Positions 54,072 to 63,238 of a DNA stretch of 64,000 nucleotides are shown in pieces. Position 1 is the stretch's first letter; the number at the start of each line of letters is the position of its first letter. The position numbers and the translations under genes were made by a program. The stretch comes from Solitalea longa (GTDB lineage Bacteria > Bacteroidota > Bacteroidia > Sphingobacteriales > Sphingobacteriaceae). Location of the stretch: positions 248,001 through 312,000 of the forward strand of contig NZ_PQVF01000001.1 in assembly GCF_002920915.1 (NCBI RefSeq), read 5' to 3'. Under the pieces are notes generated by a model, which saw only the letters and a list, made by a program, of their open reading frames with translations, was not told the origin of the DNA and searched no databases.

Positions 54072-54743
54072 TTATTTCTGTTTTGCTGCTTCTTGTTTCA
54101 GCTTATCATTTGCAACAATATAGAATTCAACCCTGCGGTTTTGAGTACGACCATCAACCGTTTTGTTATCGGCAATTGGTGTAGTTTCACCCATGCCTTG
54201 CGACATTAAACGGTTGGCTTGAACACCGATTGATATAGCGTAATGCATCACAGCTTCCGCACGTTTTTGCGAAAGAGTCATATTGTAAGCATCTTCTCCT
54301 GTATTATCGGTATGGCCCTGGATCTGAACATAGGTGTCAGGATATTTATTAATGATCTCGGCTAGCTGTTTCACGGCATTCTTTGAGGCATCTTTTAAAT
54401 CATATTTATTCACATCAAAAAGAACCTTCGAGTCAAAAGTTACTTTTAAGGCTTCGCCATTATTGATTTCTTCAACTTTTGCATTGGGTACAGTTTCCTG
54501 AATTTCTTTTTTCTGCTTATCCATGTACTTGCCAATGTAAGCGCCACTTACACCACCAACAGCGCCGCCAATTAATGCGCCAATCGCTGTATTTCCTGCT
54601 GCGTGACCAATTAATGCGCCAATTGCTGCTCCTGAACCCGCGCCAATCGCTGCTCCTTTTTGAGTTCCGGTCATGTTTTTACAAGCGGGCATAATACTCG
54701 CAATAGTTAAAAGCGCTGCTAATAATAGTGCTTTAATTTTCAT
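54072..54743 (-). CDS. OmpA-family lipoprotein with glycine-zipper segment
   Basis: A 223-residue lipoprotein with lipobox MPAC (Cys21). Residues 30-72 form a glycine-zipper stretch (AAIGAGSGAAIGALIGHAAG and GALIGGAVGGVSGAYIG) likely to insert in a membrane. The C-terminal OmpA/MotB-like domain includes IQGHTDNTGEDAYNMTLSQKRAEAV and RTQNRRVEFYIVAN, which bind peptidoglycan. It resembles the Pal/YiaD type and should link the outer membrane to the wall. Confidence 0.92.
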   Translation of the reverse strand: MKIKALLLAALLTIASIMPACKNMTGTQKGAAIGAGSGAAIGALIGHAAGNTAIGALIGGAVGGVSGAYIGKYMDKQKKEIQETVPNAKVEEINNGEALKVTFDSKVLFDVNKYDLKDASKNAVKQLAEIINKYPDTYVQIQGHTDNTGEDAYNMTLSQKRAEAVMHYAISIGVQANRLMSQGMGETTPIADNKTVDGRTQNRRVEFYIVANDKLKQEAAKQK

Positions 54744-54913: not shown

Positions 54914-55996
54914 ATGATTCAGAAGGATATGAATAATGATAAGGAATGCACAACTTGGCTGGAGTATAACTTGAAATATTCAAAAATAGGGATATATGTT
55001 GCCTTTGGAATCTGTGGACTTAATTATTTTCGAGACTTTGAACTTTCCTGGCAAACCATCTTTGCAACATTCTTATTTTCAATAACCATATCTCTTACTA
55101 TCACCAATATCATTCATTTGTCGCATCGATTGTTTAATAGAAATCACGAAAGAACTATTAAACAAGTTATTGTTGATTTTGCATTGATGGGATTAGGAAT
55201 TATAATAGCTACCGAGATTTGCTTTGGCGTATTATATCTTGGTTTTGATAAATGGTTTACTCTTCAGGAACAACTGCCTTCGTTGGCATTTAATTTATTT
55301 GCAGGTTTTATAATTGGCGGGTTCAGGCAAATTATTGACCTGCAAAAAGAGAATTATGAATTCAAACTTAAAGAAAGTGAATATCAGGTAACTAAGTTAC
55401 ATGAGCTAAAAACACGAGCCGAGTTGGAGGCTCTTCAGTCGAAAATAAACCCTCATTTCTTGTACAACTCATTAAATTCAATTGCCTCCTTAATTCACCA
55501 GGATGCTAACAAAGCCGAGGAAATGGTGTTAAAGCTTTCCAAACTGTTTCGTTATGCGATCAATACTAACGATGAGAGCTACACAACACTGGCTTATGAG
55601 CTGGATATTGTTAAAACCTATCTCGATATTGAAAGTATCCGATTGGGAGACAGGTTGCAAACAAACTTTGTGATTGATGAAACATTAAGACATGAAAAAA
55701 TACCACGCTTCTTGCTTCAACCATTGGTAGAAAATTCAATTAAGCACGGCATTTCTAAGATCACTCAAAATGGAGCCATTGAAGTTGGTGCCACTTCAGT
55801 TAATAATGAAGGATTAAAGATTTGGGTGGCTGATAATGGTCCGGATTTTCCACTGGATTGGAATCCTGGATATGGACTGCAGAATACTTTTGACAAGTTA
55901 AAACTACTTTACAATGATAATTATGAATTGAATATTATCATGGCCCCACAGAAAAGAATTCAGATTATTATTCCGAAATTCGTTTTCAAAACTTAG
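54914..55996 (+). CDS. LytS/YehU-type sensor histidine kinase
   Basis: A 360-residue membrane kinase. Four hydrophobic helices lie at about 25-38, 48-68, 88-110 and 123-140, forming a short sensor with no large periplasmic domain. The kinase part carries the phospho-accepting His181 in LQSKINPHFLYNSLNSI and the ATPase motifs DNGPDF and GYGLQNT, as in the His_kinase family paired with LytTR regulators. It is followed by an acidic-protein gene (3-base gap) and a LytTR regulator gene, all in one operon. Confidence 0.93.
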   Translation: MIQKDMNNDKECTTWLEYNLKYSKIGIYVAFGICGLNYFRDFELSWQTIFATFLFSITISLTITNIIHLSHRLFNRNHERTIKQVIVDFALMGLGIIIATEICFGVLYLGFDKWFTLQEQLPSLAFNLFAGFIIGGFRQIIDLQKENYEFKLKESEYQVTKLHELKTRAELEALQSKINPHFLYNSLNSIASLIHQDANKAEEMVLKLSKLFRYAINTNDESYTTLAYELDIVKTYLDIESIRLGDRLQTNFVIDETLRHEKIPRFLLQPLVENSIKHGISKITQNGAIEVGATSVNNEGLKIWVADNGPDFPLDWNPGYGLQNTFDKLKLLYNDNYELNIIMAPQKRIQIIIPKFVFKT

Positions 55997-55999
55997 TAT

Positions 56000-56464
56000 A
56001 TGAAATTCATCAACCGCTTTTCGCTGCATCTACACTATAAATTGCCTTACCTGAACTGGTATAATTCCATTTTCCCTGAAGAAGCTTTTGCTTCCCTTGA
56101 AGAAATCAATGAGACCGAGAAAACAACTTATTTGATTCCGGTTTTTGACGAAGACAGTGAAATAGAAGAGTATTTGGAGGAAAACTTCGAGCAGTTTTTT
56201 ATTGATGAGCTTTTTGGTGTTTCCATGGCCCAGGAAACCTGGCCACAGGACATTACCATTGAAATGTTTTACGAATGGTTTGATGTTGACGTTACCCCAA
56301 TGGTGGTAGACTATGGAGATGAAGAATTGATTGATGATGAGTCTGAAGGTTTTTCTGATTTTTGGGACGAGGATGAAGATGAGAATGAGGAGAATAAGAA
56401 TAACCAGGCAGGGGATGATTCAGAAGATAATATCCGTCAGCTACCTAAACGTCCTTCTAATTAA
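56000..56464 (+). CDS. Acidic hypothetical protein inside the LytS-LytTR operon
   Basis: A 154-residue protein that I cannot assign to a named family. It is very acidic: residues 48-75 and 108-145 are dominated by Glu and Asp. The middle (about 76-105) has aromatic residues in a conserved-looking order (ETWPQDITIEMFYEWFDVD). There is no signal peptide or membrane helix. It lies 3 bases after the kinase, and its last base overlaps the first base of the regulator start, so all three are translated together. It may act as a third partner, for example an adaptor or an inhibitor of the pair. Confidence 0.75.
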   Translation: MKFINRFSLHLHYKLPYLNWYNSIFPEEAFASLEEINETEKTTYLIPVFDEDSEIEEYLEENFEQFFIDELFGVSMAQETWPQDITIEMFYEWFDVDVTPMVVDYGDEELIDDESEGFSDFWDEDEDENEENKNNQAGDDSEDNIRQLPKRPSN

Positions 56465-57225
56465 TGCCCTTATTTAATACCATTATCATTGATGATGAAC
56501 CTTTAGCCAGAAATCGGTTAAAAAGGTTACTCAGTACTTATGAACAGGTGTTTTTCATTGAGGCTGAAGCAGCCAATGGTGAAGAGGGTCGCCAGCTTAT
56601 TGAAGAACTTAAGCCCGACTTGGTTTTCCTTGACATTGAAATGCCCGTTTTAAACGGCTTTGAAATGTTAGGAATGCTTTCTTTTATCCCTTTAATTGTT
56701 TTTACTACCGCATTTGACCAATATGCCATTAAGGCTTTCGAAGAAAATTCAATTGATTATTTGCTTAAACCCGTTGAAGCAGAAAGGGTGGAATTAACTG
56801 TAGCCAAGTTGCAGAAGGTAAATATTCATTCTGCAAACACTAACCCAGCAAAGCTGCTTGATCTATTTGAGAAGCTGCAGACCAAAAAAGAGCTAAAGGC
56901 GTTACCCGTTAAAATAGGTGATAGGTTTTTGTTAGTGAAGACCTCCGAAATAAGTCATATTGAGGCTGATGATAAATATGTTTCCCTAAAAACATTAAAA
57001 GGAGATTCCTATTTAACCGATTATACACTTTCTTCTTTGGAAAGCAAATTACCTGAAAGCTTTCTCCGTGTTCATAGAGGATGTATTATCAATGCTGAAA
57101 ATATGAAAGAGGTGCGAAAAGGGTTTAATGGAGCCTTAATAGCCATTATGAATGACATTAATGGCTCCAAAATTTCAACCAGCAGAAGTTATACTGATAA
57201 TCTGAAGCGGATTTTAGAGATCTAG
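56464..57225 (+). CDS. LytTR-family response regulator
   Basis: A 253-residue regulator. The receiver domain (1-120) has Asp57 in PDLVFLDIEMPVLNG, with the flanking Thr and Lys sites in FTTAFDQYA and YLLKPVE. The LytTR DNA-binding domain (about 145-250) contains VKIGDRFLLVKTSEISHIEADDKYV and FLRVHRGCIIN. Phosphorylation by the upstream LytS-type kinase is expected. The target promoters are unknown, but the RND operon immediately downstream on the opposite strand is a possible target. Confidence 0.94.
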   Translation: MPLFNTIIIDDEPLARNRLKRLLSTYEQVFFIEAEAANGEEGRQLIEELKPDLVFLDIEMPVLNGFEMLGMLSFIPLIVFTTAFDQYAIKAFEENSIDYLLKPVEAERVELTVAKLQKVNIHSANTNPAKLLDLFEKLQTKKELKALPVKIGDRFLLVKTSEISHIEADDKYVSLKTLKGDSYLTDYTLSSLESKLPESFLRVHRGCIINAENMKEVRKGFNGALIAIMNDINGSKISTSRSYTDNLKRILEI

Positions 57226-57249
57226 GTTAAATTCTAATAAAAGGCATTT

Positions 57250-62967: not shown

Positions 62968-63102
62968 TTTGAGAGAGTAAATTACTGGAAGTTAATAAAA
63001 TGCATTCTCAATTACTATAGTTCAGTCAAAGTTTTTTTAAGTAAACATAGGCTGTATTCTTTAAAATGAAACTATTTTTTAGCCGGTTAAGAACTGGATT
63101 TT

Positions 63103-63136
63103 ATCGGTGAATATTTTTAGTTGATCGTTCACCGAT
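63103..63136. promoter_or_regulatory. Inverted repeat in the region between RND operon and TonB receptor
   Basis: ATCGGTGAA (63103-63111) and TTCACCGAT (63128-63136) are exact reverse complements with a 16-base spacer. The size and position suit a dimeric regulator's operator between two divergent units. A further TTATCGG occurs near 63150. No regulator gene is adjacent. Confidence 0.45.
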
Positions 63137-63238
63137 GGTTTATTGCAGTTTATCGGGTAAAGCCTTGCACTCGTCGGCAAAGTGTTTAAAAAAACAGGTA
63201 CTGTTATCAAATTTGAGCCATCAACACCAGCAGAACTA

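Follow-up and report, generated by a model that had tools for sequence, protein, structure and literature searches.

An acidic accessory gene captured between a histidine kinase and a LytTR response regulator in Solitalea, with a putative role as third component

LytS/LytTR-type two-component systems include BtsS/BtsR and YpdA/YpdB; some two-component systems also have auxiliary or connector proteins, such as PmrD and MzrA. The Solitalea locus described here resembles the LytS/LytTR systems in that a PF06580 kinase lies beside a Response_reg-LytTR regulator in one operon; unlike them, it carries a third gene between the two, here called X, and no LytS-type 5TM sensor domain was reported. Should X have been co-opted by this pair, it would resemble the PmrD/MzrA-type connectors in being a small protein with an effect on a kinase or regulator, although the X family otherwise lies away from two-component genes. 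In the LytTR Regulatory Systems, a second protein is proposed to hold a LytTR regulator in check; it is a transmembrane inhibitor, and these two proteins make up the whole minimal system (PMC6193735). The Solitalea locus likewise has a LytTR regulator with a separate proposed partner protein, whereas X has a predicted compact alpha/beta core and is accompanied by a kinase and a receiver domain. Because a PF06580 kinase is present, the locus is not a LytTR Regulatory System in the sense of having a transmembrane inhibitor as the regulator's sole partner.

The window, a stretch of 64,000 nucleotides from Solitalea longa, contains the three genes in the arrangement listed in Table 1. The gene coordinates given in an earlier note on this DNA were exact, and the open reading frames verified the tight spacing that it described: three bases (55997-55999) separate the kinase gene from X, and the X stop and the regulator start share one base at 56464 (TAATG). 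Its description of X as a highly acidic protein of no known family was also borne out, with 44 Asp and Glu against 8 Lys and Arg in 154 residues, a pI of 4.05 and a net charge of -36; searches of Pfam, NCBIfam, PHROGs and PADLOC gave no match. The kinase scored 98.2 bits against the Pfam His_kinase model (cut-off 25.2) and had no Pfam match besides PF06580 up to an E value of 1. The name "LytS-type" therefore fits the kinase part and not the sensor, since Pfam reported no LytS 5TM domain; judged by its domains, the protein is a PF06580 kinase and not a LytS in the strict sense. The regulator matched PF04397 (LytTR, E 3e-23) and PF00072 (Response_reg, E 1.2e-18) in Pfam and reached 185 bits against the NCBIfam BtsR model, under its cut-off of 246. 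An OmpA/glycine-zipper gene (window 54072-54743) is divergent from the kinase gene in all four Solitalea species.

Table 1. Features of the Solitalea longa operon, in positions of the window
Feature	Position	Strand	Evidence
Sensor histidine kinase, PF06580 type (partner 1)	54914..55996	+	360-aa ORF; PF06580 E 3.3e-28; orthologues in the other three Solitalea
X, 154-aa acidic protein between kinase and regulator	56000..56464	+	ORF; present in 4/4 Solitalea; distant homologues; pN/pS; AlphaFold2 core confident
X core, residues 1-104, part common to the wider family	56000..56311	+	alignment; predicted model; invariant residues
X acidic tail, residues 105-154, Solitalea only, net -16 here	56312..56461	+	tail length comparison; low pLDDT; alignment
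LytTR response regulator, Response_reg + LytTR (partner 2)	56464..57225	+	253-aa ORF; Pfam
24-base gap to convergent efflux genes	57226..57249	none	ORF list

The order kinase-X-regulator was found in all four Solitalea genomes examined, with X once per genome and separated from both neighbors by gaps or overlaps of no more than 14 bases; in Solitalea agri, the profile of X matched contig NZ_JAMWYS010000028.1. The X proteins of the other three species are 71-87% identical to the window copy. Pairwise pN/pS by the Nei-Gojobori method, at mostly saturated synonymous sites, was 0.06-0.13 for the X core (first 105 codons, four species), compared with 0.27-0.32 in the kinase and 0.13-0.19 in the regulator. 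By these ratios, purifying selection acts more strongly on the X core than on the gene of either partner. The tail, at 0.18-0.56, is less conserved than the core. Presence in four of four genomes, the level of identity and the low core pN/pS together show that X is a real, strongly constrained gene. A third component at the level of the genus should show both conserved linkage and constraint on the gene, and both were found, indicating that the linkage within Solitalea is not accidental.

We nevertheless considered a neutral linkage, in which X was inserted by chance and simply never lost. Such an accident would suit a single origin in one genus and the patchiness of the family, which a class-level profile search found in 26 of 395 genomes (25 besides the window's) and a search of Sphingobacteriaceae in 5 of 301, namely the four Solitalea and one other. 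Core pN/pS values of 0.06-0.13, even with synonymous sites mostly saturated, speak against a neutral gene, and the neutrality of X itself is largely refuted by them. Furthermore, the adjacent spacer, which separates the regulator from the efflux genes, holds other genes in two species, yet the kinase-X-regulator operon stayed intact. We consider an accidental linkage very improbable.

A search for the regulator in 100 genomes gave matches with E values of 1e-40 or lower in 51 of them, and 30 of the loci were retrieved. At the 13 best loci outside Solitalea (L057-L069), which come from nine other genera and have regulators 48-60% identical to that of the window, the kinase lay directly upstream of the regulator with no room for X, so that X was absent from every one of these orthologous pairs. 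The window's genome has seven LytTR and eight PF06580 matches; by hand subtraction of match positions, the LytTR and kinase domains are 738-868 bases apart in six other pairs and 1263 bases apart in the pair with X. These gapless pairs, both in other genera and in the window's own genome, show that the insertion is particular to Solitalea among the genomes sampled. X is thus not a general component of LytS/LytTR systems. What the earlier note had proposed, an uncharacterized regulator of the pathway, stands insofar as X is coupled, conserved and constrained in all four Solitalea, and falls as a general statement because of the 13 orthologous pairs that lack it. If X acts on the pair, the X-less sister pairs in nine genera would provide natural controls.

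If the acidic tail bound a basic LytTR surface, as had also been suggested, a compensating charge might be expected in the regulator. We looked for such compensation by comparing Solitalea regulators with X-less orthologues and did not find it: the LytTR net charge of +3 in Solitalea falls within the X-less range of -1 to +5, which leaves the suggestion without support, and the receiver, at -8 to -11 compared with -1 to -10 elsewhere, is not more basic either.

X belongs to a patchy, nameless family of acidic alpha/beta proteins of about 100-120 residues. A phylum-level profile search matched 12 other genomes of 395 and left ten loci after removal of three weak matches (L018, L019 and L020; E 4e-4 to 0.0065) that lay inside other long frames or contained stops, and single-protein searches added homologues from Neisseria and Burkholderia to those from Bacteroidota. 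Duplicate places of other loci (L022, L023, L026 and later repeats) were also dropped before counting. Ten loci (L036, L038, L039, L041, L044-L047, L049 and L102), of which L049 is a weak match, entered the neighbor test and were omitted from alignments A3 and A4. None of the family members scanned matched a Pfam, NCBIfam or PADLOC model above cut-off; in PADLOC, window X and the members at L008, L029 and L016 matched no model at E 0.01. Literature searches found no paper on X, which has no name to search under. Two members (L041, 1465-2163, and L044, 1474-2211) carry a second C-terminal region of about 120 residues with no Pfam match above cut-off, and the overlapping loci L032 and L048 (G591) hold two near-identical tandem family copies about 1.3 kb apart.

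The Solitalea proteins share with the rest of the family a common core, in which R6, W20, P82, F90 and D104 are invariant across the alignments. They differ from all other members in having a long acidic tail and in lying beside a kinase and a regulator. Past the last invariant Asp, the tail measures 45-51 residues in the four Solitalea and 1-17 in 28 others (alignment A3). Its net charge in Solitalea is -16 to -19, and it ends in IRQLPKRPSN in the window and in IRHLPKPP in the other three species. AlphaFold2, run with 29 sequences, predicted the core with confidence (pLDDT block means 85-97 to residue 100) in the order beta-alpha-alpha-beta-alpha-alpha-beta; confidence was low beyond about residue 110, with block means of 47-57 from residue 111. 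In Foldseek searches with the X model, the best E value was 1.5 against the PDB and 0.28 against viral models, and VIA-align gave a best Z of 3.6. All rows of these searches were weak, with no known DNA mimic among them, and the lack of a match is not by itself evidence that the fold is new. A resemblance to PII-like proteins and PurS was too weak and was discarded. Profile A1 of X had no match among PDB chain sequences to E 10. A phage origin was likewise set aside, since phage records gave no match with one family member as query and viral contigs gave none with A1, L016 or L008, although more distant relatives may exist in phages.

The family tree groups the four Solitalea proteins in a single clade (100/100) whose stem is long, at 1.71 changes per column, and whose crown is short, a shape that we counted for capture and co-option. 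X is almost certainly a captured accessory gene, acquired once, in the ancestor of Solitalea.

According to the earlier note, homologues found mainly away from LytS/LytTR genes would mark the linkage as accidental. With the window's kinase and regulator as tblastn queries, none of 39 X loci outside Solitalea had either gene nearby, in flanks of 1.5 kb (4 kb for three loci) that were in some cases ended by contig ends; both queries matched in all 26 control loci. The condition thus largely applies outside the genus, whereas inside it the linkage is kept in four of four species. Many of the other members lie beside ordinary genes, among them argH, mnmE, recF and folC, which we named by eye from the sequences. 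Several lie in or beside restriction or defense loci. At L008 (G221), X sits within a type III system as mod-X-res, with an ATGA overlap of the mod stop and the X start and a TAATG overlap of the X stop and the res start. At L029/L105 (G578), the order is HsdM-X-HsdS of type I, with DUF3800 and HsdR further downstream. At L110 (G576), X stands ahead of genes for a PF01555 methylase and an MvaI/BcnI endonuclease (type II). L104 (G777), from the only genome with X outside Solitalea among the 301 of Sphingobacteriaceae, has a run of a DruE-like helicase, SLFN_AlbA_2, RhuM/Fic (PDC-S23), X and DUF3843 in a Druantia-like island.

We counted methylase domains (PF02384 or PF01555) around 36 X loci in 34 genomes and found them within 5 kb of five loci, compared with 0.40 expected (P ~4e-5); because two restriction contexts had been seen before the test was devised, its P value is a post hoc one. 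The count used 125 hits, those weaker than E 1e-10 being excluded, and rounded genome sizes; the excess persisted from 2 to 13 kb. In the tree, four restriction or defense members occupy three places (L008 with L102, and L029 and L039 each apart) and are interspersed among members with other neighbors, although the deep forks are not settled. A group count for the "rm" label gave one change; since it counts labeled rows only and skips unlabeled ones between them, the placement was taken from the tree itself.

These neighborhoods suit a rival explanation, in which X keeps an independent, perhaps defense-related function and uses the operon for its expression without contact with the pair. A family found beside many unrelated genes, never near a kinase or regulator at the 39 outside loci, and recurring in restriction or defense settings at three separate places of the tree, with the post hoc excess of methylases, agrees well with such a passenger. 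Its habit of sitting inside other operons makes this explanation nearly as likely as co-option. By itself, however, it leaves unexplained why X was retained in all four species with a core more constrained than its partners and why a new acidic tail arose in just the Solitalea copies. Whichever role X has in Solitalea, the family is possibly a defense accessory not yet characterized and, as it recurs in restriction and other defense loci, a candidate to be tested in that role.

An acidic surface imitating DNA might block the LytTR domain, in line with the competition with DNA suggested in the earlier note, and would also account for the restriction-enzyme neighbors; the charge of window X and a family neighborhood that includes DNA methylases, restriction enzymes and a Rep3 replication initiator suit this idea. 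Charge is modest in most relatives, however, with core net charges of -2 to -24 in the 28 other aligned members, and the invariant positions (R6, W20, P82, F90 and D104) do not form an acidic array. We regard DNA mimicry as improbable. A broader proposal, that the members of a defense-associated family modulate their DNA-acting operon partners and that one was re-used in Solitalea with a new tail as a modulator of a LytTR two-component system, seems unlikely, if somewhat less so.

The explanation that we favor, and hold only tentatively as to mechanism, is that the captured gene was co-opted as a third component modulating the kinase-regulator pair. In the Solitalea ancestor, a family member was inserted between kinase and regulator and gained an acidic tail of 45-51 residues, and strong purifying selection has maintained it there; it would have become a cytosolic third component. 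X and the regulator may be translated together via the TAATG overlap. The folded core could then bind one partner, more likely the regulator, with the tail and its conserved IR(H/Q)LPK end tuning this contact, and X might limit the output of the regulator or set its threshold. The regulator, with which the translation of X would be coupled, is the more probable target. However, mod-X-res is equally tight, with ATGA before and TAATG after X, so that close packing may be characteristic of the family without implying that X functions in the pair. We counted the restriction of the long tail to copies linked to the kinase and regulator in favor of co-option; the lack of charge compensation in the regulator and the weaker conservation of the tail than of the core were counted against the mechanism. 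On balance, X may well have been retained as a modulator of the pair. If so, the locus would clearly exemplify a two-component operon that acquired a third part through accessory-gene capture.

Finally, we examined the convergent efflux genes, which the earlier note had named as a possible target. The OEP-RND-MFP genes converge on the regulator, and in each of the four Solitalea OEP and RND are found on this side of it. The gap varies between species: it is 24 bases in the window, about 94 in G001, about 2.4 kb in G002 and, with a methyltransferase gene inside it, about 0.9 kb in G003. Neither the MFP promoter, of which 135 bases were compared for G001, nor the kinase promoter contained a pair of direct repeats of the LytTR-type consensus. 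With no such repeats and with 0.9-2.4 kb and other genes intervening in two of four species, the RND operon is unsupported as a target; the regulator and the efflux genes are connected by synteny alone. The MFP promoter (window 62968-63235, minus strand) does contain a palindrome, ACTATAGT, whose conservation ahead of MFP extends to each of the four Solitalea species and which is a candidate operator.
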